Source: Coemansia sp. RSA 487 (taxonomy: Eukaryota; Kickxellomycota; Kickxellomycetes; Kickxellales; Kickxellaceae). From it: a DNA stretch of 64,000 nucleotides. The position numbers and the translations under genes are program-made. The DNA lies in the NCBI GenBank assembly GCA_027577595.1, contig JANBRJ010000025.1, forward strand, positions 124,001 to 188,000. The letters are read 5' to 3'. Below the pieces are notes generated by a model, which saw nothing but the letters and a program-made list of their open reading frames with translations, had not been told where the DNA came from and ran no database searches. Positions 10,100-63,085 of the stretch are shown here, one piece after another (position 1 is the first letter of the stretch; every line of letters starts with the position of its first letter).

Positions 10100-11086
10100 T
10101 TAGTTCACAGAATTCTCTTTAACATTTAGCTTCAGAACCGCAAGCACTTCCTTGGACAGTCTAATCTGAGCAGCACCGTAGTTCTCGCCCAAGTAATTTA
10201 TCCTCTTTGTTCCAGGGATCGGAATAACGTTATCATGTGTTAGCAGCCACGCCAGAGCCACTTGGCTAGGAGTGCACTCGTGTCGCTTTGTAATCTCGCC
10301 AAAGGCTTCTACCAGATTTGATGCGCTCTTAAGCGTCTGATCCTTGAACTGCGAGTGGTAGCGACGTATGTCATAATCAGGCAAACTGCCGATTGACGCA
10401 AGCGTTCCGGTCAGAGCGACAGAGCCAAGCGGGCAGTAAGCAACCACAGTAATATCGAGCTCGCGGCAAGCATCTAGCAGTCCATTAGTCACGATGCTAG
10501 TGTTCCATGCGCTGTATTCGACCTGGACTGCTGCAATTGGGTGGATCTTGTATGCACGACGCAGCGCATCTGCTGAGCAGTTTGACAGGCCCAAGTAGCG
10601 CACCTTGCCTTCCTTGACCAGCTCGGCCATAGCAGCAACAGTTTCCTCAATCGGAGTTGTTGAGTCCATGTGGTGCATGTGGTACAAGTCAATGCTGTCA
10701 ACGCCAAGGCGCGCAAGACTTTCCTCTACGCAGTTGCGGGCGTACTCTGGTTTGCCGCTCGCCCCATTTATGTGCTGAGTAAACGAGCCCTTGAAGTTGG
10801 GTTCTGATTTATTGACAATCACGCCAAATTTGGTGCACAGGAAGATCTCGCTGCGGCGGTCCTTCAATATACGCGAAAGCAGTCTCTCGTTGTGCCCAAA
10901 GCCATAAATGTTGGCTGTGTCCCAAAACGTGCACCCGTTGTCAATGGCGCGGTTGAGCACCTTGACAGTCTCGTCGTTTGGTATATCTCCGTAGCTAATA
11001 GACATACCCATAGTGCCAAGTCCAATACGAGAAACTCGCGTCTTGTTTCCAGGAACACCAAATTCAGTTGTTGAAAAGGGTGTCAT
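10100..11086 (-). CDS. Aldo-keto reductase, YakC/AKR13-like (AKR1 of array A)
   Basis: The protein has 328 residues from the ATG at 11086 (MTPFSTTEFGVPGNKTRV). An in-frame ATG at 11122 would add 12 residues, but the other three copies begin at the 11086 position and the catalytic residues then share their numbering. The tetrad is complete: D56 and Y61 in FWDTANIYG, K86 in FLCTKFG and H138 in YHMHHMD. The C-terminal NADPH-binding region is present (IPIPGTKRINYLGENYGA). The family reduces aldehydes or ketones with NADPH in the cytosol; the substrate is unknown. This is the most diverged copy: the region after residue 205 (PLGSVALTGTLASIG) differs strongly and the usual IQG-(T/A)RY tail is missing. 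It lies downstream of MFS1 on the same strand and ends array A. A TATA-like ATATATAAT lies about 105 nt upstream. Confidence 0.88.
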   Translation of the reverse strand: MTPFSTTEFGVPGNKTRVSRIGLGTMGMSISYGDIPNDETVKVLNRAIDNGCTFWDTANIYGFGHNERLLSRILKDRRSEIFLCTKFGVIVNKSEPNFKGSFTQHINGASGKPEYARNCVEESLARLGVDSIDLYHMHHMDSTTPIEETVAAMAELVKEGKVRYLGLSNCSADALRRAYKIHPIAAVQVEYSAWNTSIVTNGLLDACRELDITVVAYCPLGSVALTGTLASIGSLPDYDIRRYHSQFKDQTLKSASNLVEAFGEITKRHECTPSQVALAWLLTHDNVIPIPGTKRINYLGENYGAAQIRLSKEVLAVLKLNVKENSVN

Positions 11087-11791
11087 GGCTTTTAAAGGGT
11101 AGTATGCAGATGTCTGTTTCAATGCTGTGGGTTAGCTTAGTGTGAATAGTATATGTTTTGCAACATTTGCTACTCTACTACCTTTTCATTATATATCTGC
11201 CAAACCCGATTTTGCTTGATATAAGAATGTTGCCAAGACAAACCAACAAGCAGCGCGTTCAGCTTGTTGTTTGTGGCTTTTTTTTAATAATCTATTCACA
11301 TTAATAATATTCCCGATTTTGTCTCCATTTTTTTATAAAGCATGGAAATCCAATAAGATGAGTTTGCTCTGCTGAAAAATAGCCATTGTGCCATTAATAT
11401 GCTGTCATATAGAATTGAAATCCCACAGCATTGCAGATAGTATTTACCAATCTTTCGTTTTTCTATTCAGTGATTGTCATTGCTATCCAAATATGTTTAA
11501 CTAGTGGAGATGTCGGATGATGCATTGCGTTTTTCTGAACGATTCCCAGGCAAACAAGCCTTGGAAATGGCGTTTGCGTGTTTTACCCACTGTTTAAATG
11601 GGCTGGATTTACATGTTTGCTTCTTTTTGTACTATTGATAACTTTCCAATATCATCGATGTTGTACATTGAGCTTTTAACATATTGTATTGCATTTTTCA
11701 CAAGTTGCACCATAGTACCCTTGTTCTCAGTACAGTCATTTTGTTGAAAATAAGTAAATAAATCATAATAACAAAGGACCATTATCTAGAG
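11087..11791. other. Intergenic: AKR1 promoter and MFS1 3' flank
   Basis: AT-rich 705-bp spacer. Reading on the minus strand, ATATATAATG (around 11188-11197) is a possible TATA box for AKR1. I see nothing else. Confidence 0.6.
11188..11197 (-). promoter_or_regulatory. TATA-like box of AKR1
   Basis: On the minus strand the segment reads ATATATAAT, about 105 nt upstream of the AKR1 ATG. The other three reductase genes have a TATA-like box at a similar distance, though theirs read ATAAATAGA. Confidence 0.4.
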
Positions 11792-13360
11792 CTATTCAGA
11801 GCCAACGTTAGTAGATTCGTCGTCTGGATCAACACGAATTTCCTTGTCGGCTTCTGATGCGAATACGTTGACCGAATCGGGAATACTTAGCGCAACATAC
11901 CAGGCAATTAAAAATGTAATACTGCCTGATACCCAGGCAAAATGTGAATTGAATGGATAAGGGAATGAGTGCTTGATGGACCAACTCCAGAGATACCCCC
12001 AAATGAGAGGACCGAGCATACTAGCAGCCCCACTGAGTTGAGTCTGTAATCCATTGATAAAACCAAGGCAATTCTTCCTTGGCGCAACATTTGCAACTAG
12101 AATATAGATACTTGTGAAAGCCAACGTATCGCCATACATGCGAATATAGAGCTCTATGAACAGTAAGCCCCAAAACAAACAGTTTTCCAGAGAAAGTTGT
12201 CCGATAATGTTGCTAGCAAAGAGCGTATCTGGAAAGTAGCTTGTATGCTTTGCCAAAGTTGAAAATAGCGGAAGTGTGATGCCTGCTGCTGCCAACCACA
12301 GGAGCCCACGCCGGTAGCATGCAATTGTGCCATATTTACGCTCTTCCTTATAGTATACAACTAGCTGCAGATATACTATGAATATGCTGCACAGCATAAG
12401 CGTGAAACCGATGGTGCGTGGGTCCATTCCCAGTCCTCCGTCAGCGATATCTGTGGCTGCAAATATCGGGTAAAGCTGATTGTGCATTGCAATGGCAAGG
12501 CACAATCCGGTATTTGTTACAAGAACGCGGATAACCGTAGGTGTCAGAATATCACGTTTGGAGAGGGTCTCCGGTGGTTTGTGTATTTCGCATCTTCCTT
12601 CCTCGCGCTGCGTCTCGGGTACAAGTGGAGTTGTTTCTGAGGCTGTATCGTTAATCTGAGTTGTGGATGGTTTTATAACTAGAGTTTCTTCCAGACAGAA
12701 GAACCCAACGACCAAGCCAAACAAACTTATCGAAGAGCCGACAAGGCATGGAAGCAAGTAAGGATACTCGCGGAACAGTACAGAATCACCAAAAAGCCAA
12801 GGATAGTTTTTTACAGGATCGGCTAGTAAACCACCAATTGCTCCTCCCAGAACTTGGCCGACATGACATATCAACGGGAACATTGACATCATGCGCGCGC
12901 GGTTTGTATCGTCTGATATCTCTGCGATCATGGGTCGGATGACTACAGTACCTCCTGTGAAGAAGCCATTAAGGCAACGGACAACCAGCGCCCACGTAAA
13001 GGATTTTGAGACACCAAACAGTACAAACGTCATCAGGTCACCCAGCAACCCGATGAGTATAACTGGACGCCTGCCAATACGGTCGGAAAGAATACCCCAA
13101 TGCACTGTAGTCAATGTTCTTAAAAAGTGGAAGGATGTAGAAAGAAGGCCAGCATAGAAAGCGATATCTTTGGGATCTTGAACTACGTCGAATCCACCGA
13201 CCATCTGATACAAGAAAGGGAGAATTATAGTATACCCCACGGGCTCGGTCATTTTGACAGCAAAAAGTACTGCAAGTTTCCTCCAGGGCAAGGGCGTTTC
13301 TCTAACAGGAGCGACACCATTTGGGGTTTGCTCTTGCCTGTTTATCTCCGTGCTTGGCAT
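11792..13360 (-). CDS. MFS transporter, DHA1/ZIFL-like (MFS1 of array A)
   Basis: The 522-residue membrane protein has about 12 hydrophobic segments, six on each side of a loop at about 230-280. The DHA1 motif A is clear between segments 2 and 3 (WGILSDRIGRRPVILIG). AEISDDTNRARMMSM, conserved across the array, lies between segments 4 and 5. The family comprises proton-coupled exporters of drugs, metal chelates or metabolites, such as plant ZIFL and bacterial TetA. The substrate here cannot be told. The central loop holds ETTPLVPETQREE, an acidic dileucine-like signal. Its nearest relative is MFS6: both have WRKLAVLFAV near the start and FIELYIRMYGDTLAF or its equivalent near segment 10. Their upstream DNA is also alike. 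Start MPSTEINRQEQTPNG is the only ATG before segment 1. Confidence 0.9.
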   Translation of the reverse strand: MPSTEINRQEQTPNGVAPVRETPLPWRKLAVLFAVKMTEPVGYTIILPFLYQMVGGFDVVQDPKDIAFYAGLLSTSFHFLRTLTTVHWGILSDRIGRRPVILIGLLGDLMTFVLFGVSKSFTWALVVRCLNGFFTGGTVVIRPMIAEISDDTNRARMMSMFPLICHVGQVLGGAIGGLLADPVKNYPWLFGDSVLFREYPYLLPCLVGSSISLFGLVVGFFCLEETLVIKPSTTQINDTASETTPLVPETQREEGRCEIHKPPETLSKRDILTPTVIRVLVTNTGLCLAIAMHNQLYPIFAATDIADGGLGMDPRTIGFTLMLCSIFIVYLQLVVYYKEERKYGTIACYRRGLLWLAAAGITLPLFSTLAKHTSYFPDTLFASNIIGQLSLENCLFWGLLFIELYIRMYGDTLAFTSIYILVANVAPRKNCLGFINGLQTQLSGAASMLGPLIWGYLWSWSIKHSFPYPFNSHFAWVSGSITFLIAWYVALSIPDSVNVFASEADKEIRVDPDDESTNVGSE

Positions 13361-13834: not shown

Positions 13835-15400
13835 TTAAGAATTTGCATCCGCGGATTCATCTTCTGCTGGGGCACGACTTTGCTCATTGGATCCTGCTGC
13901 AAACACATTGACTGAATCGGGGATGTTTAGCGTTATATACCATGCAGCCACGAGTAAAACACCGGTCAATACCCAGGCAAAATGCGAGTTAAATGGGTAG
14001 GGAAACGAATTCTTGATAGACCAACTCCATAGGTACCCAGAAATGAGAGGTCCGAGCATAAAAGTAACTGAAAGGGCCTGAGTTTGTAACCCGACTACAA
14101 AACCAAGGCAATTCTTCCTTGGCGCAACATTTGCAACTAAAATGTTGATACTAGCGAAAGCCAAAATATCACCATACATGCGAATGAAGAGCTCGATAAA
14201 CATAAACCCCCAAAATAAGCAGCTTTGCGCAGAAAGCAATTTCATAATATTGAATCCAGCCAGAATTCCTGCAGGTCTACCCATATAGCTTGCCATGTTT
14301 GAAAGCAACGGTAGTGTAATGCTAAATACTGCCAACCACAGGAGCCCCTGCTTGAAGCACGCAAGTGCACCATATTTGCGTTCAGTTTTGGGATATACAA
14401 CTAGCTGTAGGCATATCACAAGAAGGCTACATAACATAAGCGTGTAGCCGATAGTTTGCGCATTCATTCCCAGCCCTCCATCTGCGATGTCTGTAGCAGC
14501 GAATATTGGGTATAGCTGGTTGTGCATTGATACAGCAATACACAAAATGACGTTGGTTACAAGAACGCGTATAACCGAAGGTGTCAGAATATCCCATTTG
14601 GATAGAAACTCTGGCGCTGTAACAATTTCATATCTGCCTTCCTCGCTTTGTGCTTCTGATACAAGCGGTGTGGACTCTGAAGCAGCGCTGCTAACTGGAG
14701 TTGTCGTCGGCTTTATAACTAGAGTTTCTTTCAGACAAAAGAATCCAACGACTAGACCGAATAAACTTATCGAAGAACCGGCAAGACATGGAAGCAAGTA
14801 AGGATACTCGCGGAACAGCACAGAGTTGCCAAAAAGCCAAGGGTAGTTTTTCACGGGATTAACCGTCAAACCGCCAATCGCGCCGCCAAGCATCGAGCCA
14901 ACATGCCACATCAGTACACACATTGACATCATGCGGGCCCGATTTGTATCGTCAGAGATTTCTGCAATCATGGGCCGGATAACCACAGTACCTCCTGTAA
15001 AGAAGCCGTTAAGACACCGAACAACCAGCGCCCATCCAAAGGATTTGGAAAGACCAAACAGTACAAATGTCAACAGGTCGCCCAACAAACTCGCAAGTAT
15101 AACTGGACGCCGACCAATACGGTCAGAAAGGATACCCCAATGCATAGACGTTAGCGTCCTTAGAAAGTGGAAGGAGGTAAAAAGAAAACCGGCATAGAAA
15201 GCAATATCTTTTGGATCGCGAACAATGTCGAAACCACCAACCATTTCGTACATAAAAGGAAGGATCAATGTGCATCCTACCGGCTCAGTCAGCTGCACAG
15301 CCAAAAGCACTGCGAGTTTGCCCAAGGGCAGCGGCGTTTCTCTCACAACAGCGTTACCATCTCGTGTCTGTCCTTGTCTACTCGTTCTCGCAGTTGGCAT
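13835..15400 (-). CDS. MFS transporter, DHA1/ZIFL-like (MFS2 of array A)
   Basis: The 521-residue transporter begins at the ATG of MPTARTSRQGQTRDGN. The open frame runs eight codons further up without another ATG. About 12 membrane segments, with motif A as WGILSDRIGRRPVIL and the shared AEISDDTNRARMMSMC. The loop motif is ESTPLVSEAQSEEG. The tail is hydrophilic and short (NVFAAGSNEQSRAPAEDE). It is closest to MFS5 in array B: both open with RTSRQ-x-QTRDGNAVV-x-ETPLP and have matching upstream DNA. Substrate unknown; export by proton antiport is the family norm. Same strand and spacing (about 0.5-0.7 kb) as the rest of the array, so each gene probably has its own promoter. Confidence 0.9.
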   Translation of the reverse strand: MPTARTSRQGQTRDGNAVVRETPLPLGKLAVLLAVQLTEPVGCTLILPFMYEMVGGFDIVRDPKDIAFYAGFLFTSFHFLRTLTSMHWGILSDRIGRRPVILASLLGDLLTFVLFGLSKSFGWALVVRCLNGFFTGGTVVIRPMIAEISDDTNRARMMSMCVLMWHVGSMLGGAIGGLTVNPVKNYPWLFGNSVLFREYPYLLPCLAGSSISLFGLVVGFFCLKETLVIKPTTTPVSSAASESTPLVSEAQSEEGRYEIVTAPEFLSKWDILTPSVIRVLVTNVILCIAVSMHNQLYPIFAATDIADGGLGMNAQTIGYTLMLCSLLVICLQLVVYPKTERKYGALACFKQGLLWLAVFSITLPLLSNMASYMGRPAGILAGFNIMKLLSAQSCLFWGFMFIELFIRMYGDILAFASINILVANVAPRKNCLGFVVGLQTQALSVTFMLGPLISGYLWSWSIKNSFPYPFNSHFAWVLTGVLLVAAWYITLNIPDSVNVFAAGSNEQSRAPAEDESADANS

Positions 15401-16045: not shown

Positions 16046-17608
16046 TTAAGTTACATTGGTGGATTCATCGTCTGATGTGGCACGGCTTTGCTCATTGGAT
16101 CCCGCTGCAAATATGTTGACCGAGTCGGGAATGGGTAGAGTCATATACCACGCAACTATAAGCGAAACACCGCTCAATACCCAGGCAAAATGTGAGTTGA
16201 ATGGATAAGGGAACGAATGTTTGATAGACCAACTCCATAGGTACCCAGAAATGAGAGGACCGAGCATAAAAGTAATCGAATTTCCCTGTTGCTGCAATCC
16301 GGTAATAAAACCAAGATAATTCTTTCTCGGGGCTATATTACCAGCTATGATGTTGACACTGGTATAAGCCAGTATATCGCCATACATGCGAATAAAGAGC
16401 TCTATGAACATAAATCCCCAGAACAAACAAGCTTTCAGGGATATTAATTTCATAACATTGAACTCAGTCAGAATTCCGGCAGAATTACCTATATACTTTG
16501 CCATGTTTGAAAGCAATGGCAAGGTGATGCCAAATACTGCCAACCACAAAAGTCCGTGTCTGTAGCATACAAGCGCACCATATTTGCGTTCATTTTTGGG
16601 ATATACGGCTAATTGTAGAGTAACTACGAGGAAGCTACACAGCACAAGCGTGTAACCGATGGTACGTGCATCCATTCCCAACCCTCCATCAGAGATATCT
16701 GTAGCAGCAAATATCGGGTATAGCTGATTGTGCATTCCAACAGCAAGACACAAAATAGTGTTTGTTACAAGAACGCGTATGACTGTAGGCGTTAGAATGT
16801 CCCATTTAGATAGGGGCTCTGGCGCTGTATTAGCTGCACATCCCCCTTCCTCGCTTTGTGCTTCGGATACAAGTAGAGTAGTTTCTGAAGCAGCACCGCT
16901 AATTGGAGCTGTGGTTGGTTGCACGACAAGGGTCTCTTCCAGCTGGAAATACCCAACAACTAGACCGAATAAACTTATCGCTGACCCGACGAGACAAGGA
17001 AGTAGGTATGGATACTCCCGGAACAATACAGAATTGCCAAAGAGCCAAGGATAGTTTTTTACCGGGTCAACAAACACACCGCCAATAGCACCACCAAGCA
17101 TCGACCCAAGATGCCACATTAGCTGCAGCATAGCCATCATGCGAGTACGGTTCGTATCGTCAGAGATTTCCGCTGCGACTGGCTTAATGACAACAGCACT
17201 TCCTGTAAACAAACCGTTAAGGCAACGAACAACCAGCGCCCATGTAAATGATTTAGATACGCCAAATAGGACAAATGTCAGCAGGTCGCCCAGCAAACCA
17301 AATAGAAGCACGGGGCGACGGCCAATGCGGTCAGAAAGAATGCCCCAGTACATGATGGTCAGCGTCCTGATAAAGTGATAAGAGGTTAGAAGAAGACCGG
17401 CGTAGAAAGCAATGTCTTTGGGGTTATGGACTATTTCGAAGCCTCCGACCATGTCGTACATGAACGGAAGAATCAGTGTGAAGCCTACGGGCTCGGTCAA
17501 TCGCACTGCCAGAAGAGCCATCAGTTTGCCCCAGGGCAGTGGCGTTTCCTTTACAGGGGCATTGCCATCTCGAGCCGGCTCTTGTCTGCTTGCTTCGGTG
17601 TTTGACAT
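16046..17608 (-). CDS. MFS transporter, DHA1/ZIFL-like (MFS3 of array A)
   Basis: The 520-residue transporter begins at MSNTEASRQEPARDGN. Eleven upstream in-frame codons lack an ATG. Motif A is WGILSDRIGRRPVLLFG and the segment 4/5 signature is AEISDDTNRTRMMAM. About 12 hydrophobic segments. The loop reads ETTLLVSEAQSEEG, with Leu replacing the Pro of its neighbours. It is similar to MFS2 and MFS5 through most of its length, including the tail FAAGSNEQSRA shared with MFS2. Its upstream DNA does not show the block conserved before the other four. Substrate unknown. Confidence 0.9.
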   Translation of the reverse strand: MSNTEASRQEPARDGNAPVKETPLPWGKLMALLAVRLTEPVGFTLILPFMYDMVGGFEIVHNPKDIAFYAGLLLTSYHFIRTLTIMYWGILSDRIGRRPVLLFGLLGDLLTFVLFGVSKSFTWALVVRCLNGLFTGSAVVIKPVAAEISDDTNRTRMMAMLQLMWHLGSMLGGAIGGVFVDPVKNYPWLFGNSVLFREYPYLLPCLVGSAISLFGLVVGYFQLEETLVVQPTTAPISGAASETTLLVSEAQSEEGGCAANTAPEPLSKWDILTPTVIRVLVTNTILCLAVGMHNQLYPIFAATDISDGGLGMDARTIGYTLVLCSFLVVTLQLAVYPKNERKYGALVCYRHGLLWLAVFGITLPLLSNMAKYIGNSAGILTEFNVMKLISLKACLFWGFMFIELFIRMYGDILAYTSVNIIAGNIAPRKNYLGFITGLQQQGNSITFMLGPLISGYLWSWSIKHSFPYPFNSHFAWVLSGVSLIVAWYMTLPIPDSVNIFAAGSNEQSRATSDDESTNVT

Positions 17609-18110: not shown

Positions 18111-19112
18111 TTAGTAGCGAGTGCCTTGAATGTTGGCAGAGTCAACAAGCTTCCTTAACTCGTTGACATCTCCATCAGACAGCTTAACCTGGCCAGCAGC
18201 AAAATTCTCCTCAAAATACTTTGACTTTTTGGTTCCAGGAATGGCAATCAAGTTGTCGTCCTGAGAAAGCAGCCATGCAAGTCCAAGCTGTCCGGGCTTG
18301 CAGTCGTGCTTCTTGGCCATGGTTTCGAATGCATAGACAAGTTTGAGGTTGAAATCAAAGCGCTCTGGCTTGAAACGTGGGTTTTTGCGGCGCCAGTCGT
18401 CTTCAGGAAGGTCGTCGAAACTGCGGATCTGACCAGTCATGAAGCCACGGCCAAGAGGCGAGTACGCAACAACTGTGATGCCAAGCTCGCTGCAGGCGTC
18501 AAGCACACCGTTTGTTTCAACGTGAGTAGACCATGCGCTGTACTCAATCTGAACTGCAGTGATCGGATGAACCTTGTGTGTACGGCGCAGCTCTTCGGGT
18601 GTGCACTCGGAAAGGCCAATGTAGCGCACCTTGCCTTCCTTGAAAAGCTCAGTCAAAGCAGAAACCGTTTCCTCGATTGGAGTGCTTGGATCCATGCGGT
18701 GCATGTAGTACAGATCAATGTAGTCGACACCGAGACGCTCAAGGCTTTCTTCCGCACACCTGCGCACATAGTCAGGCTTTCCGCTGGTTCCACTGAGGTA
18801 GCGCGTAAAATTGCCTCTCTTTTCAGGACTATAGTTACTGATAATTGAACCAAATTTGGTACAGAGGAACACCTCGTTGCGCCGCTCCTTCAGTACACGA
18901 GACAGCAGCCTTTCGTTGTGTCCAACACCATAGACATTCGCGGTGTCCCAGAAAGTGCATCCAATGTCGATAGCGTGGTTGAGGACCTTGATGGATTCGT
19001 CGTCATCGACAGCTCCATAAATGGCTGACATGCCCATGGTGCCCAGACCAATACGGGGCACGCGAGTCTTGTTGCCAGGAGTGCCGATCTCGACAGTAGG
19101 AATGGTAGTCAT
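18111..19112 (-). CDS. Aldo-keto reductase, YakC/AKR13-like (AKR2 of array A)
   Basis: The 333-residue TIM-barrel oxidoreductase has a complete tetrad: D56 and Y61 (FWDTANVYG), K86 (FLCTKFG) and H138 (YYMHRMD). The cofactor segment is LIAIPGTKKSKYFEENFA and the tail is SANIQGTRY. It resembles fission-yeast YakC and plant/bacterial AKR13 enzymes, which reduce small aldehydes and ketones with NADPH in the cytosol. The real substrate is not predictable. It starts at MTTIPTVEIGTPGNKTRV, the same position as its paralogues. It is less AT-rich than neighbouring MFS genes. In the direction of transcription it sits between MFS4 and MFS3, each with separate intergenic DNA, so co-transcription is unlikely. 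This looks like the best preserved reductase of the set. Confidence 0.92.
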   Translation of the reverse strand: MTTIPTVEIGTPGNKTRVPRIGLGTMGMSAIYGAVDDDESIKVLNHAIDIGCTFWDTANVYGVGHNERLLSRVLKERRNEVFLCTKFGSIISNYSPEKRGNFTRYLSGTSGKPDYVRRCAEESLERLGVDYIDLYYMHRMDPSTPIEETVSALTELFKEGKVRYIGLSECTPEELRRTHKVHPITAVQIEYSAWSTHVETNGVLDACSELGITVVAYSPLGRGFMTGQIRSFDDLPEDDWRRKNPRFKPERFDFNLKLVYAFETMAKKHDCKPGQLGLAWLLSQDDNLIAIPGTKKSKYFEENFAAGQVKLSDGDVNELRKLVDSANIQGTRY

Positions 19113-19832: not shown

Positions 19833-21604
19833 TCAATCTGTTGGCTCATCGTTTCTATCATCCTTGTCTGCTGCAAACTTATTTACAGACTGCGGGATCT
19901 TGTGTGAGGTGCAATACGATGTCAATGTCAATGCGGCCGCAACAGTCCAAACACAATGCGAGTTGAACGAAAATGGCAACGGATGTTTCATTGACCAGGT
20001 CCAAATAGCCCCTGTAAGCAGAGGTCCGATAACCCTGGTGACCGTCATAGCCATCTGTTGCATGCCATTCATAGTTCCGAGATCAGCCTTGCTTGGCGCT
20101 ATGTTGACTGTTAGTATGTTGATGCTCGTGCTGGTCAATATTTTAGCAACGGTCAATAAAAGCAAAAGTGAAACAAGCAGCACCCAGAAAGTCACATACT
20201 CAACCGCTGTAGCTCCATTCCATTTGTCAGGAAGCCGCATGATATTTGCAAATTTAGGGTCGGTAACGGCCTTCTCTAAGTCTGCAGAAAGTACGGAGAG
20301 GAATGGGATTAGGATATATGGGATAATCATGAGCATCTGGCCACGCTTATAGCAGAAAAGCGCACCGTACTTGCGCTCAAGTCGTGGGTATACAAAAAGC
20401 TGCACGTAGAACACAGCCAGCGAGGAAAAGGCAAGGGAAAAGCCAATGCTACGGGCTTCGAATCCCAGGCCGCCCTCGTCAGTTGAAGTAGCTGCAAATA
20501 TTGGGTATACCTGATCTCCTACAGACATGGCAATACATATGAGGATATTTGTTATCATTACACATGTGACAGTGGGAGTCATAAGTTCCCTTATTGAGCG
20601 CTGCTTTGGCTGTTGGGAAACTTGGGCTTCGTGATCTTCTTCTGCTGCAAGTAGCGGTGTGTTCTCGCTGACCAAAATTGCCGACGGTGGACATTCAGAC
20701 GAACTGGCTGGTATTTGGGTGCGTAAAGGTTTACCTTGGTTCTTCCGTACAAGGGTCTCTTTGAGCTTAAACACAACCATTGTCAGGCTGAAAAGCGTCA
20801 CCGAGCTGCCGATTGCACATGGAAGAAAATAAGGGAACCTTTGGAATAGCTTGACATTACCAAAGAGCCCAGGATATTGATGCGCAGGATCAGCAAATAT
20901 TCCGCCAACAGCTGCTCCTCCTATCGCCCCAATATTCCACATCAGTGGAAAAAACGCCATCATTCGTGCACGGTTTGTATCATCGGAGATTTCGGCAAAA
21001 ACACTTTTGATCACTGCGGCATTTCCAGATAAAAGCCCGTTGAATGACCGAGCGGCCAGTGCTACCCAGAACGACTTGGAGAGCCCCAAAACAAGCATCG
21101 AAACCAGGTTTCCGGTTAGGCCTATAAACAATATTGGACGTCGGCCAATGCGGTCAGATAACCGGCCCCAGTACATGATAGTCAACACCTGGCAAAAGGC
21201 AAAGGATGTGAACAACAAACTTGCATAGAATGCGATGTCCTTGGGGCTTTTCGCTATTTCATAGCCTTCCACCATCTACAATGGCAGTAAGTGTATCAGC
21301 TTTAGCCCAGTTAGCATCGGCAAATACAGTTTATCATTCATTTCTGCGCTGCAGTTGTAACGAGCCAGTATGATTCACAGCGACATTAAAGCCTTTTTCT
21401 GCTCACCTTGTAAACGAATGGCAGAATCATCGTATGGTTAACTGGTTCCGACAGCCTTATCGACATAAGCACCAGTAGCATGTCCCACGGTAGAGGTGTT
21501 TCCTTCGCGTTTCTTGCTGTCCCATTGCGAGCTGAGTGAGAGGCTACATCGTTTCTTTCTCGATCTTGACGTGTGGGTACTTCAACACTTTCAGCATTAG
21601 TCAT
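19833..21604 (-). CDS. MFS transporter, DHA1/ZIFL-like, two exons (MFS4 of array A)
   Basis: Exon 1 is 21407-21604 (66 codons from MTNAESVEVPTRQDRE) and exon 2 is 19833-21275. The 131-nt intron 21276-21406 starts GTGAGC and ends TAG, phase 0. The join gives ILPFVYK|MVEGYEIAKSPKDIAFYA, in register with the single-exon paralogues (LPFMYEMVGGFDIV-x-DPKDIAFYA). The protein has 546 residues and about 12 membrane segments; motif A is WGRLSDRIGRRPILFIG. It is the most diverged transporter here. The central loop is longer and its motif is ENTPLLAAEEDHE, a good match to an acidic dileucine signal. ARSFNGLLSGNAAVIKSV links it to MFS7 rather than to MFS1-3. It is the only copy with an intron. Confidence 0.9.
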
Positions 21605-27146: not shown

Positions 27147-27182
<36 letters not shown>

Positions 27183-41062: not shown

Positions 41063-41100
<38 letters not shown>

Positions 41101-48231: not shown

Positions 48232-48378
48232 GCATTTAAAAATAACTAGACTTTCCAATGTGCCTTCCATGTTATCAAAAGGAAATATCAATGCTCTATT
48301 GTGTTCCATTTACATATATTAAAAAAAGATTAAATAATTTTATAAGTATAAGAGAGGAGAGACAAAATAAAAGAGATG

Positions 48379-52661: not shown

Positions 52662-53771
52662 ATGAACGATAACAAGATCAAACTGGAAATAAATCTGGCT
52701 CCCCCACTACCCGAACGCAAGTTTCTGCTTATTTGTGTCCAAAAGACCATCAAAGATTTGAAAAATGAAATAAGGCGGCGACTGGTCACACTCATACAGG
52801 AGCCCATTGCCCTTGTTTACGATGGCTTTGAACTTATGGACGATGACCTTGTAGCGGATCTGCTTTCCAACCGCGATTCCCTCATTGTCGTTCTTCAAGA
52901 GCACCTTCAACTCTATTATGCAAAAGACAGCTCCAGTCCGCCGTTGTATCCTTGCGAGTGCCAGAACAAGGTGAGTCGTCCTCCCGTATTCATCAGCAAA
53001 AAAGAACATGGCACGGATTCGCTGCAGGCCAAGCAGCCGCTCAAATTGAACAAGAGGATCTATCCGGCTGAGCTACTTTACGCTGACATCAAAACTACGC
53101 AAAATAAATCCATTACGAATATTACTGATAAATCTATTGGCAAAAGTATATCCAAGAGTAGCAAGAACAGCAGCAGTAGAACCTCTAATGCCTCAAGAAG
53201 CAGTGAGGAAACTACAAGTAGTGGCAGTAGTAGTGGCAGCAGCAGCAGCAGCAACAGTTCGGATGAGACTGCAGCTTGCAAAATATGCGATGGCAAGCTG
53301 TATCCTGATACAGAACATATTTGTTTCGATCAGACTTCTGGCTCCAGCAACGAGTCGCCAGAGGCAATGCCGTTAGATCGACTGTCAGTGTCAGACTCAT
53401 TTAAGGAGCGTATACAAAAACTAACCATACCAGAAATACTTTGGCTTGACGATGCCAGTCCCAAAGACGCTCGCCCTGGGCATATTATTGCATACAAGGC
53501 TCTTGAAATTGCCTCAAATGTCACTCCAGTGGTTAGCAACTACAGGATAGCAGAGATCGTTGAAACACACGAGAACGGATCACTGTCAGTTCAAATATTG
53601 CGCGAATTCAGACATGGTAAAGAGACAAGTAGCGATGTTGACTCATCCGTAAAGCAGAGACGTGCAAACCTTTTGAACAGTAGCAATTCAAGTGCAGAAC
53701 CTGGTCTCACTGACAGTGCTCTTGTTGTCCTCGATCCTGCTTTAATATATAACCTCAAGTTTCTTAGATAA
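52662..53771 (+). CDS. Coilin-like protein (Cajal-body component)
   Basis: The 369-residue protein starts at the ATG of MNDNKIKLEINLAPPLPE. Residues 5-90 form a ubiquitin-like segment (LLICVQKTIKDLKNEIRRRL; LIQEPIALVYDGFELMDDDL; SNRDSLIVVL) that matches the coilin N-terminus, which mediates self-association. The middle is disordered, Ser/Asn/Lys-rich, with a CxxC-x-H-x-C-like patch (ACKICDGKLYPDTEHIC). The C-terminal 120 residues resemble the coilin atypical Tudor domain. GHIIAYKALEIASNVTPVVS and NYRIAEIVETHENGSLSVQI line up with GEKIAFKLLEL and DYKEGRILSHN in human coilin. The last strand (VVLDPALIYNLKF) fits DPRLII of the vertebrate protein. Coilin organises Cajal bodies and snRNP maturation; a fission-yeast homologue (Mug174) has been proposed. 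An AATAAA is at about 53817. Confidence 0.75.
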   Translation: MNDNKIKLEINLAPPLPERKFLLICVQKTIKDLKNEIRRRLVTLIQEPIALVYDGFELMDDDLVADLLSNRDSLIVVLQEHLQLYYAKDSSSPPLYPCECQNKVSRPPVFISKKEHGTDSLQAKQPLKLNKRIYPAELLYADIKTTQNKSITNITDKSIGKSISKSSKNSSSRTSNASRSSEETTSSGSSSGSSSSSNSSDETAACKICDGKLYPDTEHICFDQTSGSSNESPEAMPLDRLSVSDSFKERIQKLTIPEILWLDDASPKDARPGHIIAYKALEIASNVTPVVSNYRIAEIVETHENGSLSVQILREFRHGKETSSDVDSSVKQRRANLLNSSNSSAEPGLTDSALVVLDPALIYNLKFLR

Positions 53772-53853
53772 ACACTCTCGAATGTATAGTATATTTTTTG
53801 GATTGATTGAAAGCAAATAAAGAAAGTTAAAGCTTGAAACGCAAATATGAGAA

Positions 53854-54855
53854 CTAATAGCGCGCACCTTGGATGCTGGCAATGTCAACAAGCTTTCTTA
53901 GTTCCTGAAGTTCATCGTCAGACAGCTTGATCTGGCCAACTACGACATCCTCCTCAAGATATTTGGATCTCTTGGTTCTAGGAATGGCAATCATGTTGTC
54001 ATATTGAGCAAGCAGCCATGCAAGGGCCAGCTGCTCTGGCTTGCGATTGTATTTCTTGACCATGGATTCGAACGAGTCAATGAGCTTTAGGTTGTTCTCG
54101 AAATTCACCGGCCTGAAGGGCGAACTGGTGCGACGCCAGTCATCCTTGTCCAGATCATCAATGTTACGAATATTTCCGGCTAACACTCCATGGCCAAGCG
54201 GCGAATAGACAACAACCGTAATTCCCAGCTCGCGGCAGGTATCAAGCACACCGTCAGCCTTGACATGGGTAGACCATGCACTGTATTCGATCTAGACTGC
54301 GGCAATAGGATGGACCTTGTGCACACGGCGAATCTGATCAGGCGTAACCTTGGAAAGGCCAACGAAGCGCACCTTTCCTTCCTTGACAAGCTCAGCCATT
54401 GCGGCAACAGTCTCCTCGATTGGTGTGGTTGGATCCACCCGATGAATGCAGTACAGATCAATATAGTCGATACCAAGATGCTCGAGACTATCTTCAGCAG
54501 CTTGGCGTACATAGTCAGGCTTTCCGTTGATACCATTGATATAATCTATAAAATTACCGCCATCGCCAGACTTGCGCTCCCGTGCAGTTAATCCAAACTT
54601 GGTGCACAGAAAAACCTCCTTGCGACGTTTCTTCAATACACGGAAGAGCAGCCTCTCATCGTGTCCGAGATCGTATGTATCGGCAGTGTCCCAGAAAGTG
54701 CAGCCGATGTCGATAGCATGGTTGAGAGTCTTGACGGATTCGTCGTCATCGACAGCTCCGTAGACGACTGACATGGGCACGGTGCCCAAACCGATACGAG
54801 ACAGGCGGATTATGTCGCCAGGGATGCCGAGTTTGATGGTAGAAATGGTAGTCAT
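53854..54855 (-). pseudogene. Aldo-keto reductase, YakC/AKR13-like, interrupted by one stop codon (AKR3 of array B)
   Basis: Full-length copy (333 codons, start MTTISTIKLGIPGDIIRL) whose frame is intact except for codon 188. That codon is TAG at 54292-54294, where all paralogues have Gln (AAVQ-x-EYSAW); a single C-to-T change explains it. Upstream of the stop the catalytic tetrad D56, Y61, K86 and H138 is preserved. Downstream the cofactor region (MIAIPRTKRSKYLEED) and tail ASIQGARY are still readable in the same frame. The TATA-like box also remains. The lesion is therefore recent, a strain polymorphism, a sequencing error, or a site of stop read-through. A 187-residue product would lack the C-terminal part of the barrel and most NADPH contacts. 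It is most like AKR2 (VDDDES, WSTHV, IQG-x-RY). Confidence 0.85.
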
Positions 54856-55543: not shown

Positions 55544-57121
55544 TTAGCTAGGCTCTTCCGATCTAGCGTTGGTAGAATCCCCGTTCACAGATGTGCGATT
55601 TTGCTCATCGGATCCGGAGGCAAATGTATTAACTGAGTTGGGGATTTTTAGAGTCATATACCACGTAACTACAAGCAAAATACCACTGAATATCCAGGCA
55701 AAATGCGAATTAAACGGATAAGGGAACGAGTGCCTGATAGACCAACTCCATAGGTATCCGGAAGTGAGCGGACCAACCATAAAAGCAATCGAATTAAGCT
55801 GATTCTGTAATCCGGTAATAAAACCAAGACAATTCTTTCTTGGCGCAACATTTGAAACTAGAATATTTACACTAGTGAAGGATAGTATGTCACCAACCAT
55901 TCTAGTATAGGACTCTATCAGTATGAATCCCCAGAACAGACAGCCTCCCCAAGAGAGATATCCAAGGATATTGAAACTAGCCAGAATTCTGGTAGAATTG
56001 CCCATGTACTTTGCCAAATTTGAAAGAAATGGAAGTGTGGTACTAAACACCGTCAGCCACAAGATTCCCCGTCTGTAACATGCCAATGCGCCGTACTTGC
56101 TTTCGTCTCTCGGATATATAACCAGTTGAACGTATATTACGAACATGCTGCATAATGCAAGTGTGAATCCGATGGTTCGTGCATCCATTCCTAGTCCTCC
56201 GTCAGCGATATCTGTGGCAGTAAATATGGGGTAAAGCTGGTTGTGCATTGAAATGGCAAGGCACAACATGGTGTTTGTTACAAGAATGCGGATAGCTGTA
56301 GGTGTCAAGATATCCCACTTAGATAGAGGCTTTAGTATCGTATTGTTTTCGCATCTGCCTTCCTCACTTTGTGTTTCGGATACAAGTGGCGTGGTTTCTA
56401 AAGCTGCACTATTGATCGGAGCTGGAGCTGACTTTATGACTAGAGTTTCTTCCAGACAAAAGAATCCAACGACCAAGCCAAAAAAACTTATCGCTGAGCC
56501 AAAAAGACAGGGAAGCAAGTATGGATACTCGCGGAACAGTACAGAATTCCCAAAGAGCCAAGGATAATTCTTTACTGGATCAACTAACAAACCGCCAACC
56601 ACGCCTCCAAGCATCGACCCAAAATGCCACGTGAATGGAAGCATAGCCATGACACGAGCACGGTTTGTGTCGTCAGAGATCTCTACAGCAATGGGTTTAA
56701 TAACAAAAGAGCTTCCTGTGAAGAAACCGTTAAGGCAGCGAACAACCAGTGCCCATGTAAAGGATTTTGAGACACCAAACAGTGCAAACGTCAACAGATC
56801 GCCCACTAGCCCGATGAGTACCACTGGACGCCGGCCAATACGATCAGAAAGAATGCCCCAATACATAATGGTCAAGATCCTTAAAAATTGAAAAGAAGTA
56901 AAAAGAAGACCAGCATAGAAAGCAATATCTTTTGGATCATGGACTACATCGAATTCTCCGACCATCTGGTATATGAAAGGAAGAATCAAGTTGAAGCCCA
57001 CTGGTTCTGTCAGTCGTACTGCTAGAAGCACTGCAAGTTTACTCCAGGGCAGCGGCGTTTCGCTAACAACAGCGTTGCCATCTCGAGTCTGTATTTGTCT
57101 ACTCGTCCTCATATTTGCCAT
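55544..57121 (-). CDS. MFS transporter, DHA1/ZIFL-like (MFS5 of array B)
   Basis: The protein has 525 residues from MANMRTSRQIQTRDGN. The frame happens to stay open 60 codons further, but that stretch (from MLNTPEIGGTDPLRGPQ) corresponds to non-coding upstream DNA of MFS1 and MFS6. I therefore reject it as a long N-terminus. About 12 membrane segments; motif A WGILSDRIGRRPVVLIG; AEISDDTNRARVMAM is present as VEISDDTNRARVMAM. The loop motif is ETTPLVSETQSEEG. Near segment 10 it has ESYTRMVGDILSF, where the others have IRMYGD, so this conserved spot has changed. Closest to MFS2. Substrate unknown. Confidence 0.9.
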   Translation of the reverse strand: MANMRTSRQIQTRDGNAVVSETPLPWSKLAVLLAVRLTEPVGFNLILPFIYQMVGEFDVVHDPKDIAFYAGLLFTSFQFLRILTIMYWGILSDRIGRRPVVLIGLVGDLLTFALFGVSKSFTWALVVRCLNGFFTGSSFVIKPIAVEISDDTNRARVMAMLPFTWHFGSMLGGVVGGLLVDPVKNYPWLFGNSVLFREYPYLLPCLFGSAISFFGLVVGFFCLEETLVIKSAPAPINSAALETTPLVSETQSEEGRCENNTILKPLSKWDILTPTAIRILVTNTMLCLAISMHNQLYPIFTATDIADGGLGMDARTIGFTLALCSMFVIYVQLVIYPRDESKYGALACYRRGILWLTVFSTTLPFLSNLAKYMGNSTRILASFNILGYLSWGGCLFWGFILIESYTRMVGDILSFTSVNILVSNVAPRKNCLGFITGLQNQLNSIAFMVGPLTSGYLWSWSIRHSFPYPFNSHFAWIFSGILLVVTWYMTLKIPNSVNTFASGSDEQNRTSVNGDSTNARSEEPS

Positions 57122-57743: not shown

Positions 57744-59321
57744 TTAGTTGAGGTCCGCGGGACCAGTGTTGTTGGGTTCATCGTTTGAATTAGCACGACT
57801 TTGCTCGCTGGATTCTGATGCAAACGCGTTGACCGAATCGGGAATGCCCTGAGATATATACCACGCAGTTAATAGCCAAACACAGCTGAATACCCAGGCA
57901 AAATGGGAATTGAATGGATAAGGGAATGAGTTCTTGATGGACCAGCTCCAGAGGGATCCCGAAATGATAGGACCAATAATAAACATAACCGAATTGGTTT
58001 GCTGTTGCAGCCCGTTGAGAAATCCAAGGCAATTCTTTCTTGGGGCAACGTTTATAATCAGAATATAGATACCAGTGAAGGCCAACGTATCACCATACAT
58101 GCGAATATAAAGCTCCACAAACAATAAACCCCAGAACAAACAGTTCCCCCCAGAGAGCTGTCCAAAAACATTAAAACTAGCTAGAATTCTGGTAGAATTG
58201 CCCATATACTTTGCCAAGGCCGAAAATAGTGGAAGTGTGGTACCAAAAACTGTCAGCCACAAGAACCCACGCCTGTAGCATACAAGTGTACCATGTTTGC
58301 GTTCGTCTTTGTGGTATACAACCAACTGCAGATATACTACGAGCATACTGCACAGCATAAGCGTGAAACCAATGGTTCGTGCATCCATTCCAAGTCCTCC
58401 GTCGGCAATATCTGTAGCAGCAAATATCGGGTAAAGTTGATTATGCATTGAAATGGCAAGGCACAAACCTACGTTTGTTGCAAGGAGGCGTATAACCGTA
58501 GGCGTTAGAATATCCCTTATAGAAAGCGGCTCCAGCATCGCATTATTATCGCATCCACCTTCTTCGCGTTGCACCTCAGATACAAGGGGAGTCGTCTCTG
58601 AAGCGGCATCTTTAGTCAGAGCTGTGGTTGGCTTTATGGCTAGAGTTTCTTCCAGATAAAAGAAGCCAACACCCAAGCCAAACAAACTTATCGCCGAGTT
58701 TACTAGACATGGAAATAAATACGGATACTCGCGGAACAAGATGGAATCACCGAAAAGCCAAGGATAGTTTTTTACAGGGTCAACCGTCAAACCGCCAACT
58801 GCACCGCCAAGCATGGTACCGACATGCCATAACAACGGAAACATAGACAACATGCGTACGCGATTTGTGTCGTCAGATATCTCTGCAATCATGGGCCGGA
58901 TGACAACATTACCTGCTGTAAAGAAGCCGTTGAGACAGCGGATAGTCACCGCCCAAGCAAATGACTTTGATACGCCAAACAAAGCATATGTTAACAGGTA
59001 TCCCAATAACCCAAAGAGCATCACTGGGCGCCGGCCAATACGGTCAGAGATACTGCCCCAGTACGTTACTGTTGGTATTCTTAAAAAGTGGAAGGATGTA
59101 AAAAGAATGCCAGCATAGAAAGCGATATCTTTTGGATCTCGAACTATGTCAAATCCACCGACCATCTCATACATGAAAGGCAGGATTATAGTATTGCCCA
59201 TGGGCTCGGTGAGTTGGACAGCAAAGAGTACTGCGAGTTTTCTCCAGGGCAGCGGCGTTTGCCTTGCAGGAGTGCTACCATCTCGAGTCTGTTCTTGTAT
59301 GCTTGTTTCCGTGCTTGACAT
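57744..59321 (-). CDS. MFS transporter, DHA1/ZIFL-like (MFS6 of array B)
   Basis: The 525-residue transporter from MSSTETSIQEQTRDGSTP has about 12 membrane segments. Motif A is slightly altered: WGSISDRIGRRPVML, with Ser for the second hydrophobic residue. AEISDDTNRVRMLSM and loop motif ETTPLVSEVQREEG are present. It pairs with MFS1: WRKLAVLFAVQLTEP, ELYIRMYGDTLAF, APRKNCLGF and the REEG loop are shared, and the upstream DNA is alike. The tail is Asn-rich (SNDEPNNTGPADLN). No frame damage is seen. Substrate unknown; export role inferred from family. Confidence 0.9.
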   Translation of the reverse strand: MSSTETSIQEQTRDGSTPARQTPLPWRKLAVLFAVQLTEPMGNTIILPFMYEMVGGFDIVRDPKDIAFYAGILFTSFHFLRIPTVTYWGSISDRIGRRPVMLFGLLGYLLTYALFGVSKSFAWAVTIRCLNGFFTAGNVVIRPMIAEISDDTNRVRMLSMFPLLWHVGTMLGGAVGGLTVDPVKNYPWLFGDSILFREYPYLFPCLVNSAISLFGLGVGFFYLEETLAIKPTTALTKDAASETTPLVSEVQREEGGCDNNAMLEPLSIRDILTPTVIRLLATNVGLCLAISMHNQLYPIFAATDIADGGLGMDARTIGFTLMLCSMLVVYLQLVVYHKDERKHGTLVCYRRGFLWLTVFGTTLPLFSALAKYMGNSTRILASFNVFGQLSGGNCLFWGLLFVELYIRMYGDTLAFTGIYILIINVAPRKNCLGFLNGLQQQTNSVMFIIGPIISGSLWSWSIKNSFPYPFNSHFAWVFSCVWLLTAWYISQGIPDSVNAFASESSEQSRANSNDEPNNTGPADLN

Positions 59322-59940: not shown

Positions 59941-60945
59941 TTAAGTGCGGTTGCCTTGGATGTTTGCGCTATCAATGAGTAGCCTTAGTTTATTCAGGTC
60001 TTCGTCAGATAGCTTGATTTGGCTAGCAGCAAAGTTCTCCTCTAGGTATTTTATCTGTTTGGTTCCAGGAATGGCAATCAAGTTGTCGTACTGGGCGAGC
60101 AACCATGCAATTGCCAGTTGACCAGGCTTGCGGTTATATTTATTGGCCATATTCTCGATTGCGCTGATAAACTTGTCGTTATTGTCAGGGTTCTCCTGCT
60201 TAAAGCGCGGATGAGTGCGACGCCAGTCATCTTCCGAAAGACTGTCATGACTGCGGACTTTGCCGATTAACAGTCCATGACCAAGCGGTGAGTAAGCAAC
60301 AACCGCAATTCCTAGTTCGCGACAGGCGTCAAGCACACCGTTAGTCTCGATATCAGTACACCATGCACTGTATTCGACCTGGACTGCAGCGATCGGATGG
60401 GCCTTGTGCGCACGGCGCAGCTCATCCGCTGAGCAGTTTGACAGACCCAAGTAGTGCACTTTGCCTTCCTTGACCAGCTCAGCCATTGCAGCAATAGTCT
60501 CTTCAATTGGAGTGTCTGGATCACTAAAGTGTAAGTAATACAGATCGATGTAGTCGACTCCAAGCCGCTCGAGGCTTTCTTTAATGCACTTGCGCATATA
60601 GCTAGGCTTGCCATTGAAGCCAGTGATAAAATCGGTATGGTGGGAAACAGCCTCTCCAGGCTCGGGTTTACGTGTAACTACACCAAATTTGGTGCACAGA
60701 AAGACCTCGTTGCGGCGTTCCTTCAATACATGGGACAAAAGCTTTTCGGTGTGTCCAAGAGCATACATATTTGCGGTGTCCCAAAAAGTGCATCCGATGT
60801 CGATAGCGTGGTTGAGAACCTTGATAGATTCTTTGTCATCGACAGCTCCATAAACACGGGGCATGCTCATGGTCCCAAAGCCGATTCGAGGTACACGAAC
60901 CTTGTTTTTGGGAATGCCAAGTTCAATGGTAGGAATGGTCGTCAT
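59941..60945 (-). CDS. Aldo-keto reductase, YakC/AKR13-like (AKR4 of array B)
   Basis: An intact 334-residue enzyme from MTTIPTIELGIPKNKVRV. Tetrad D56 and Y61 (FWDTANMYA), K86 (FLCTKFG) and H139 (YYLHFSD). The cofactor segment is LIAIPGTKQIKYLEENFA and the tail SANIQGNRT. One residue is inserted between the Lys and His regions compared with AKR2. GLSNCSADELRRAHK and QVEYSAW are shared with AKR1 rather than with AKR2 or AKR3, while the two ends follow AKR2. That suggests mosaic evolution. NADPH-dependent carbonyl reduction in the cytosol is the family role; the substrate is unknown. Confidence 0.92.
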   Translation of the reverse strand: MTTIPTIELGIPKNKVRVPRIGFGTMSMPRVYGAVDDKESIKVLNHAIDIGCTFWDTANMYALGHTEKLLSHVLKERRNEVFLCTKFGVVTRKPEPGEAVSHHTDFITGFNGKPSYMRKCIKESLERLGVDYIDLYYLHFSDPDTPIEETIAAMAELVKEGKVHYLGLSNCSADELRRAHKAHPIAAVQVEYSAWCTDIETNGVLDACRELGIAVVAYSPLGHGLLIGKVRSHDSLSEDDWRRTHPRFKQENPDNNDKFISAIENMANKYNRKPGQLAIAWLLAQYDNLIAIPGTKQIKYLEENFAASQIKLSDEDLNKLRLLIDSANIQGNRT

Positions 60946-61498
60946 GGCCTATATGAGTTGAAGACAGGCGTTGCTTCTGCTTAGATCTGAAGATGTGATG
61001 TATATTGTTGGAATATTTTCGCTCAAAGCTATCAACCAGATCTCTATTTATTTCCACTGAAAAGGTGTCAAGATCACAATTTATATTATAAAAAGATAAA
61101 CTTGGTAGATTTTGCGTGCTCATAAGAACAATGAATTAATACACAAAAAGCAAAAGGTGGAATCCATTCGGATTTTGATTTTCAATAATGGTAAATTCTG
61201 CTGCCATGGCCGCAGCAAAAGACATGGCCAGCCTTTCTAAATTCTAAATCAAAAAGATATACGAATGAAGCTTGCGAAATTCGTGGGAGAACATTGTAGA
61301 ATTCAATCCGAAATGTTTCCGTACCTTTATGTGTTGTGCTTGATGCTGATTTAATACGCACCATCCAAGATTATGCGCGAAAATGTAATCTAGTAATAGG
61401 AAATCTGGTAAAACATGCTTTCTTGGCAACGAGGCTGACTGAGTGAAGTTTTAAAATAATACTATTGAAAATATGTACTTGTTCATGGTAAAAAAAAG
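60946..61498. other. Intergenic: AKR4 promoter and MFS7 3' flank
   Basis: A 553-bp AT-rich spacer with the TATA-like box of AKR4. No other feature. Confidence 0.6.
61042..61055 (-). promoter_or_regulatory. TATA-like box of AKR4
   Basis: On the minus strand it reads GGAAATAAATAGAG, about 100 nt upstream of the ATG. Same ATAAATAGA core as AKR2 and AKR3. Confidence 0.5.
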
Positions 61499-63085
61499 TC
61501 AGCGGGAGACTTCAGAACTAGTGTTGTCAGATTCATCGCCCGATGTTGTGCAGCTTTGCTCGCTGGATCCCGACGCAAACACATTGACAGAATCTGGGAT
61601 GCTTCGCGTCATATACCACGCAACAGCAAGCGACAAACCACCCAGTACCCACACAAGATGTGAGTTAAACGGATAAGGGAACGAGTGCTTGATAGACCAA
61701 CTCCATAGATATCCCGAGACAAGAGGACCCAGTATATAAGTGATAGATGCTGCTTGTTGCTGCAGCCCATTCATAAAGCCAAGGCTCGTTTTTCGAGGAG
61801 CAATATTAGCCACCAAAAGATTCACACTAGTGAAGGCCAGAATATCTCCGAAAGTGCGAATGTAGAGCTGCACGACAAGCAGAACCCAGAACAAACAAAG
61901 CTCGGGAGAAATCAGCTTGGTGATACCGAAGCCAAGCAAATGTTCGACGGAATCGCCCATATGCTTTGCAAAGACTGAAAGCAGTGGGAACGTAATGCTA
62001 AAGATTGCCAGGAGCCAAAGTCCGCGCCTGTAGCATGCAAGCGCACCATACCTGCGTTCAAGCTTGGGGTAAAATGCCAGCTGCAAGTATACCACGAGGA
62101 GACCACATATTGTGAATGTATAGCCAATGCCTTGTGCATCCATTCCCAATCCACCATCAGCAACGCTTGTGGCCATGAATATCGGATAAAGCTGGCTGTG
62201 CATTGTGGTGGCAAAGCACATGATGGTGCTTGTTATAAGGACGCGGATAACGGTAGGCGTCAGAATATCCCATTTGGAGCGTGGCTCTGCCTTTTGTGCA
62301 GTTTGACTTGTGCCTTCTTCGCTTTGTGCTTCGGATATAAGAGGGGTTGTCTCTAAAGCTGGCCCATTGGCGGTAGATGTGTTTATTGCGCGTGGTTTTG
62401 GCTCAAGGGTTTCTTCTAGCTGGAAGAAGCCAACGACTAGGCCAAAGATACTTGAAATAGAGCCGACTAGACATGGAAGCAAGTAAGGGTACTCGCGGAA
62501 CAGAATAGAGTTACCGAAAAGCCAAGGATACTTTTCGACGGGATTGACAAACACACCACCGACAGCACCACCAAGCATTGACCCGACGTTCCACATAAGC
62601 GGAAGCATAGCCATCATACGAGAGCGGTTTGTATCGTCTGAGATTTCTGCAACAACCGACTTTATGACTACAGAGTTTCCAGTAAACAGGCCATTAAGCG
62701 AACGAGCAACCAGCGCCCATGCGAAGGATTTCGAGACGCCAAATAGGACAAAGGTCAAGAGGTTTCCCAAAAGTCCAATGAGTATCACTGGGCGACGACC
62801 AATACGGTCGGAAAGAGTGCCCCAGTACATAACAGTAGCTGCTTTGCAGATGGAAAAAGATGTAAGAAGGAGACTAGCGTAGAGGGAAATATCTTTTGGG
62901 TCACGAACTATGTCAAATCCACCGACCATTTGGTACATGAAGGGGAGAATCAATGTCATGCCAATGGGCTCGGCTAGCCTTACTGCCATAAGAACTGCTA
63001 GCTTAGCCCAAGGGAGCGGCGTCTCCCTGACAACGTCGTGGTGGCCCAAGGCTTGATCTTGTCTACTCGTCCTTGGATCTGACAT
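61499..63085 (-). CDS. MFS transporter, DHA1/ZIFL-like (MFS7 of array B)
   Basis: The 528-residue transporter from MSDPRTSRQDQALGHHD has about 12 membrane segments. Motif A is WGTLSDRIGRRPVILIG and the signature AEISDDTNRSRMMAM. The loop motif is ETTPLISEAQSEEG. ARSLNGLFTGNSVVIKSV and PLMWNVGSMLGG bring it close to MFS4 of array A in this part. The rest resembles MFS2 and MFS3. Like MFS4 it is the outermost (highest-coordinate) transporter of its array and lies directly upstream, in transcription order, of a reductase. It lacks the MFS4 intron. Substrate unknown. Confidence 0.9.
   Translation of the reverse strand: MSDPRTSRQDQALGHHDVVRETPLPWAKLAVLMAVRLAEPIGMTLILPFMYQMVGGFDIVRDPKDISLYASLLLTSFSICKAATVMYWGTLSDRIGRRPVILIGLLGNLLTFVLFGVSKSFAWALVARSLNGLFTGNSVVIKSVVAEISDDTNRSRMMAMLPLMWNVGSMLGGAVGGVFVNPVEKYPWLFGNSILFREYPYLLPCLVGSISSIFGLVVGFFQLEETLEPKPRAINTSTANGPALETTPLISEAQSEEGTSQTAQKAEPRSKWDILTPTVIRVLITSTIMCFATTMHSQLYPIFMATSVADGGLGMDAQGIGYTFTICGLLVVYLQLAFYPKLERRYGALACYRRGLWLLAIFSITFPLLSVFAKHMGDSVEHLLGFGITKLISPELCLFWVLLVVQLYIRTFGDILAFTSVNLLVANIAPRKTSLGFMNGLQQQAASITYILGPLVSGYLWSWSIKHSFPYPFNSHLVWVLGGLSLAVAWYMTRSIPDSVNVFASGSSEQSCTTSGDESDNTSSEVSR

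Follow-up and report, generated by a model that had tools for sequence, protein, structure and literature searches.

Transporters and reductases are commonly included in the biosynthetic gene clusters of fungi. DHA1-type transporters of the major facilitator superfamily (MFS) are distinguished by motif C, the antiporter motif, with its G-P pair, and aldo-keto reductases (AKRs) by the catalytic tetrad Asp-Tyr-Lys-His; one of the latter, perakine reductase, is presumably AKR13D1. In Candida, Mrr1 co-regulates an exporter of the MFS type together with a methylglyoxal reductase (PMC9241502). In this work we have analyzed a window of 64,000 nucleotides (C25:124001-188000) of contig C25 (JANBRJ010000025.1) from the fungus Coemansia sp. 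RSA 487, in which MFS and AKR genes stand next to each other in arrays. We consider it probable (about 0.6) that they represent a tandem expansion of two families, split into four arrays over ~119 kb of one fungal chromosome segment.

Two gene families in four arrays

The assembly comprises 17,787,467 bases in 184 contigs, with 188,946 bases in C25; the right edge of the window is 946 bp short of the contig end, beside a dispersed repeat. The seven MFS and four AKR genes listed for the window in the initial annotation, all on the minus strand, have been found at approximately the positions given there, with matches to MFS_1 (PF07690) in 7/7 and to Aldo_ket_red (PF00248) in 4/4 cases, the interrupted AKR gene dA1 having been scanned by its N-terminal part only. 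All four AKR genes are thus present, but only three are intact, dA1 carrying a stop codon. The division into two arrays holds for the window (gamma and delta), but C25 as a whole contains four, two more (alpha and beta) being located to the left. The domain matches in the block between the window arrays agree with the earlier statement that the genes there are unrelated to both families.

Twelve MFS and six AKR genes are distributed over the four arrays in C25:67.8-187.1 kb, with uniform orientation inside each array (Table 1). The arrays are separated by gaps of ~26, 25.5 and 32 kb, and the parts of these that were examined hold unrelated genes; a remnant open reading frame (ORF) in the gap of array alpha itself has no Pfam match. 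Close relatives were sought by a genome-wide search with a single protein of each family as query (E 1e-5), which returned 19 MFS matches, two of them exons of a single gene, and 11 AKR matches. Beyond the close relatives these included five weak MFS matches (22-31% identity) and one weak AKR match (29%). Off C25 the close relatives are one MFS gene at the end of C121, three neighbouring AKR genes on C8 and one AKR gene on C82. Since 12/13 close MFS and 6/10 close AKR genes sit in the arrays, the clustering goes beyond chance.

The arrays had been described as alternating, which is too strong a word: over the four arrays, 8/14 pairs of adjacent genes are MFS-AKR, against a random expectation of 6.6 (P 0.30). 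The order common to both window arrays has a P value of 0.03-0.04 under shuffling.

Relatedness of the copies and probable exchange between arrays

The trees, the comparison of paralogues and the array histories were all read from this single genome. Pairwise protein identity among all 13 close MFS members is 41-95%; eleven of the C25 proteins are 61-95% identical to one another, and gM4 is 41-46% identical to these and 65% to the C121 protein. In the nucleotide tree the eleven MFS genes form a clade split from gM4 and the C121 gene (support 100/100), and the six C25 AKR genes are split from the three on C8 and the one on C82 (98.5/100). According to the initial annotation, an expansion would be contradicted if the copies were related as closely to paralogues dispersed in the genome as to one another. 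Apart from gM4, the array copies are nearer to each other, and because eleven MFS and six AKR genes separate from the other copies in the trees, relatedness does not tell against it. The common ancestry of the array copies of each family, apart from other genome copies, is supported by these trees.

The closest copies belong to different arrays. bM1 of beta groups with gM1 of gamma (100/100), bA with gA2 (86.5/76), and aM1 of alpha groups with gM3 (93.5/86), the last grouping being absent from the tree of the C-terminal half, as is the weak one of bM3 with dM3 (64.2/68). The deepest-branching array AKR is gA1, with a weakly supported placement. The proposed duplication of an MFS-AKR-MFS-MFS unit has not been borne out: 0/5 positional pairs of gamma and delta are sisters in the tree. 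Firmly excluded are gM4-dM3 (gM4 falls outside the eleven-MFS clade, 100/100), gA2-dA2 (gA2 groups with aA and bA, 98.9/99) and gM3-dM2 (dM2 is placed together with bM1, bM2 and gM1, 99.9/100); gM2-dM1 and gA1-dA1 are split by weak branches only. Since the positional pairs are not sisters, the similar order of gamma and delta is hard to take as one inherited unit, unless conversion has overwritten the signal; gene conversion can blur tree signals of this kind.

bM1 and gM1, in arrays beta and gamma 34 kb apart, are identical across 437 consecutive polymorphic sites of 965, which 0/2000 shuffles reach. Toward the gene start they share only 80-84% identity in two 120-column blocks, and the homology runs ~210-265 bp into each flank. 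The identical tract, taken together with the flanking homology, suggests ectopic gene conversion between beta and gamma, or a recent copy with partial replacement. Site shuffling singled out 6 of 55 MFS pairs at P <=0.001, uncorrected for the number of tests (55); when it was restricted to third positions, three pairs of the 55 remained at P <=0.0005 (bM1/gM1, bM2/gM1 and bM1/bM2). Among the 15 AKR pairs, P was 0.0005 in one, bA/gA2. The half-gene trees conflict, gM3 being placed with aM1 by its N-terminal half and with gM2 by its C-terminal half.

Copies of both families range from recent to old. Synonymous divergence (dS) is 0.14 for bM1/gM1, 0.20 for bA/gA2, and between 0.48 and 1.00 in the nine further pairs computed within the MFS array clade. 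The ratio of nonsynonymous to synonymous divergence (dN/dS) was calculated for 12 MFS pairs of our choice: gM4-C121 was saturated and the other 11 gave 0.14-0.22, with 0.15-0.22 in the ten that belong to the array clade (of 55 possible). In all 15 array AKR pairs the ratio is 0.17-0.31. Third-position guanine plus cytosine content is 0.39-0.49 in the array MFS genes (n=12) versus 0.53-0.80 in the nine other genome MFS genes measured; for the AKRs there is no such difference between the arrays (0.52-0.57) and C8 and C82 (0.51-0.59).

All 12 array MFS genes are open, aM1 ending about ten residues early. Two of the six array AKR genes, aA of alpha and dA1 of delta, are broken, and the remaining four are intact. 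In aA, codon 8 is a stop, and a contiguous stretch of 21 codons plus a single additional codon is missing. dA1 has a single stop, and its dN/dS against the other five array AKRs (0.17-0.26) is not clearly relaxed.

Predicted protein functions and explanations for the joint expansion

In the PDB the best matches of the MFS proteins were MFSD10, NorA and VMAT, further ones including SV2A and multidrug resistance protein D; the matches cover part of the N-terminal half only. The pattern of a GxLSDRIGRRP-type motif A is present in 12/13 members, and the 13th, dM2, has one variant residue (WGSISDRIGRRP). At the motif C position all 13 members have Gly or Ala instead of Pro (G-G or G-A), a variant that lowers the case for classical DHA1 transporters and leaves an exporter-like assignment standing. 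Simple hydropathy gave 7-12 segments across the 13 members, where the DHA1 type has 12 membrane helices, and a structure prediction for dM3 with six window MFS proteins reached a mean predicted local distance difference test score (pLDDT) of 32.1, too low for use.

Among the AKRs, gA2 alone was used in the PDB search, and its best match was perakine reductase (PDB 3uyi, 3v0s; E 1.5e-77, nearly full length). Perakine reductase accounts for the three best sequences, and 8hnq, labelled AKR13B2, follows far lower (E 4.3e-35), the PDB being a thin sample of AKR families. The D/Y/K/H positions of the tetrad are kept in 6/6 array AKRs and in the C82 protein. These matches and motifs support exporter-like activity of the MFS proteins and reductase-like activity of the AKRs, as predictions from sequence. 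As a separate observation, the catalytic His is replaced by Ala or Gly in the three C8 AKRs (C8:262817-267207), and in one of them the Asp by Asn as well; they are possibly not reductases.

The ancestral neighbourhood would already have contained one MFS and one AKR gene. The array copies of each family descend, according to the trees, from common ancestors distinct from the other genome copies, gM4 belonging to an older sister lineage. Further duplications and losses would have followed, and gene conversion has probably made copies of different arrays more alike in part, unrelated genes staying in between. Selection may have acted mainly on the transporter, through dosage or substrate range, since 12/12 MFS genes are open and constrained and 2/6 linked AKR genes are broken. 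The MFS proteins would export small organic compounds by proton coupling, and the intact AKRs would reduce carbonyls with NADPH, the two families serving in stress or xenobiotic handling. The weakest step is the biochemical coupling, in which a compound would be reduced and then exported; considered on its own, we find it doubtful. It is quite improbable that the four arrays form a dispersed reductase-exporter locus, kept similar by conversion over tens of kb and acting together as a single variable system of detoxification, with exporters removing what the adjacent AKRs produce.

The same duplication history could have arisen with unrelated tasks for both families, if an AKR gene lay by chance beside an MFS gene when the segment was duplicated and has been carried along since, partly being lost. 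We take this seriously, at somewhat below even odds: 2/6 array AKRs are broken vs 0/12 MFS genes, no upstream k-mer is common to both families, their mixing is not more regular than random, and the C8 AKRs have multiplied with no close MFS gene in C8:261317-268707. What this explanation accommodates less easily is that four of the six AKRs are intact, with dN/dS of 0.18-0.31 among them, and that AKRs occur in 4/4 arrays, although in one array as a broken copy only. If the families instead formed a co-regulated pair for reductive carbonyl detoxification and export, comparable to the Candida Mrr1 targets MDR1 and MGD1 but physically linked, then the family types would fit, and the published work on Candida provides a case of such co-regulation; the lack of an upstream motif common to both families and of any Zn2Cys6 match on C25 makes this unlikely, though the regulator could be encoded elsewhere.

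Ketoacyl-synthase, condensation, P450 and Zn2Cys6 families were searched over all 188,946 bp of C25 and none of them was matched, while the whole genome has 12, 1, 23 and 28 matches, respectively. The 28 Zn2Cys6 matches give the genome a fungal character, none having been obtained in 14 prokaryote controls. The statement in the initial annotation that backbone synthase, P450 and cluster regulator are missing is therefore upheld for C25, ketoacyl-synthase and condensation being the backbone types searched, and the locus is not a usual biosynthetic cluster. Membership of such a cluster with a backbone enzyme nearby, which the frequency of transporters and reductases in fungal clusters might suggest, is largely refuted by this result and very improbable. 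Arrays produced by collapsed or misjoined repeats are hardly credible: the window does end close to the contig end and to a dispersed repeat, but the array MFS proteins differ by 5-39% and distinct unrelated genes separate the arrays.

Several observations weigh against the tandem expansion of two families as we have described it. Other families cluster as well, with five P450 genes in 9 kb of C139 (C139:6908-16134), four on C67 (C67:43551-64768; three of them in 7 kb) and three AKR genes on C8, so that clustering alone is a weak sign of joint function. The stop in dA1 may have arisen very recently or be an error of sequencing, as it is the only one and dN/dS is not clearly relaxed. The bM1/gM1 tract may alternatively reflect a recently copied gene of which one end has been partly replaced, and site shuffling takes no account of rate differences along the gene. 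Finally, the 500 bp upstream of the 12 MFS and six AKR genes have no 7- or 8-mer in common above shuffles, the words being mostly A/T-rich; a search of this kind would miss a site that is short or degenerate.

Neighbouring features and comparison with described systems

Table 1. Arrays and genes of the two families on C25, in window coordinates unless C25 is given
Feature	Position	Strand	Remarks
Array alpha	67.8-75.2 kb of C25	+	MFS, MFS, broken AKR
Array beta	101.4-108.6 kb of C25	-	AKR, MFS, MFS, MFS in transcription order
Array gamma	10100-21604	-	4 MFS, 2 AKR
AKR gA1	10100..11086	-	328 aa; PF00248; D/Y/K/H kept; last of gamma in transcription order
MFS gM1	11792..13360	-	522 aa; PF07690; middle identical to bM1 of beta
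MFS gM2	13835..15400	-	521 aa; PF07690
MFS gM3	16046..17608	-	520 aa; PF07690
AKR gA2	18111..19112	-	333 aa; PF00248; 89% identity to bA of beta
MFS gM4	19833..21604	-	546 aa; PF07690; groups with C121 gene
Intervening block	21605..53853		32 kb; unrelated genes; flanked by both arrays
Array delta	53854-63085	-	3 MFS, 2 AKR
AKR dA1	53854..54855	-	in-frame TAG at 54292-54294, codon 188
MFS dM1	55544..57121	-	525 aa; PF07690
MFS dM2	57744..59321	-	525 aa; PF07690
AKR dA2	59941..60945	-	334 aa; PF00248
MFS dM3	61499..63085	-	528 aa; PF07690; first of delta; nearest by identity bM3 of beta, 73%

A 131-bp GT-AG intron at 21276-21406 interrupts gM4, in line with the end coordinate in the initial annotation. 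The intervening block encodes Tma46/DFRP, Kelch, cullin, ArfGAP, protein kinase, Rad23-type and coilin-Tudor proteins and contains two long ORFs without a Pfam match, at 40024-42210 (minus strand, 728 aa) and 43342-48231 (plus strand, 1629 aa). Four further ORFs of the window are without a Pfam match; ARAGORN found no tRNA in the window, and Rfam gave no match for window positions 61000-64000 at E 0.5.

Between alpha and beta lie two inverted genes for ABC transporters with TMD0, at C25:80470-85128 (minus strand) and 88933-93456 (plus strand), ABCC-like by domain layout and 97% identical over 746 bp. Two adjoining Ulp1-type (Peptidase_C48) frames are located at C25:114084-117045. The dispersed repeat of ~250 bp occupies 63437-63687 of the window (C25:187437-187687) and has at least 38 other matches of 79-88% identity, some near contig ends, with 40/221 candidates scored; a second repeated piece follows at window ~63671-63745. 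A join between C25, at its right side, and the C121 end that carries the gM4-like MFS gene was considered and rejected, the common 28-bp word lying in a dispersed repeat and the orientation not fitting a join. Elsewhere in the genome, a ketoacyl-synthase domain occurs in seven open frames (3368-3824 aa) on C3, C15, C26, C45, C78, C89 and C91, which perhaps represent several fatty-acid-synthase-like genes.

The locus is a clear example of the joint expansion of two unrelated families at several separate sites, and the arrays show signs of conversion from one to another. Should the biochemical link be true, it would add a physical linkage of carbonyl reductase and exporter outside a biosynthetic cluster; otherwise it represents ordinary tandem-family evolution. 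Among the related papers listed, titles and opening parts of abstracts describe no such arrays.

Like Candida with its Mrr1 targets, the MFS exporter MDR1 and the methylglyoxal reductase MGD1, C25 pairs predicted MFS exporters with predicted carbonyl reductases in a fungus, but the Candida pair is linked by co-regulation and the C25 genes by physical linkage and co-duplication, on a contig lacking a Zn2Cys6 match. The Candida pairing shows that such a combination can exist, and does not itself provide evidence for a link on C25. Perakine reductase, of the AKR13 type, is the best structure match, and the D/Y/K/H positions are kept in 6/6 array AKRs, whereas the C25 AKRs are fungal, arranged in arrays and broken in 2/6 cases. 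With MFSD10, NorA and VMAT (DHA1-type and related) the C25 transporters share MFS_1 and motif A, and they differ by G-G or G-A at motif C. The uniform orientation, the range of copy ages and the broken and mosaic copies are like those of tandem families undergoing gene conversion, but on C25 each of the four separate arrays combines members of two unrelated families.

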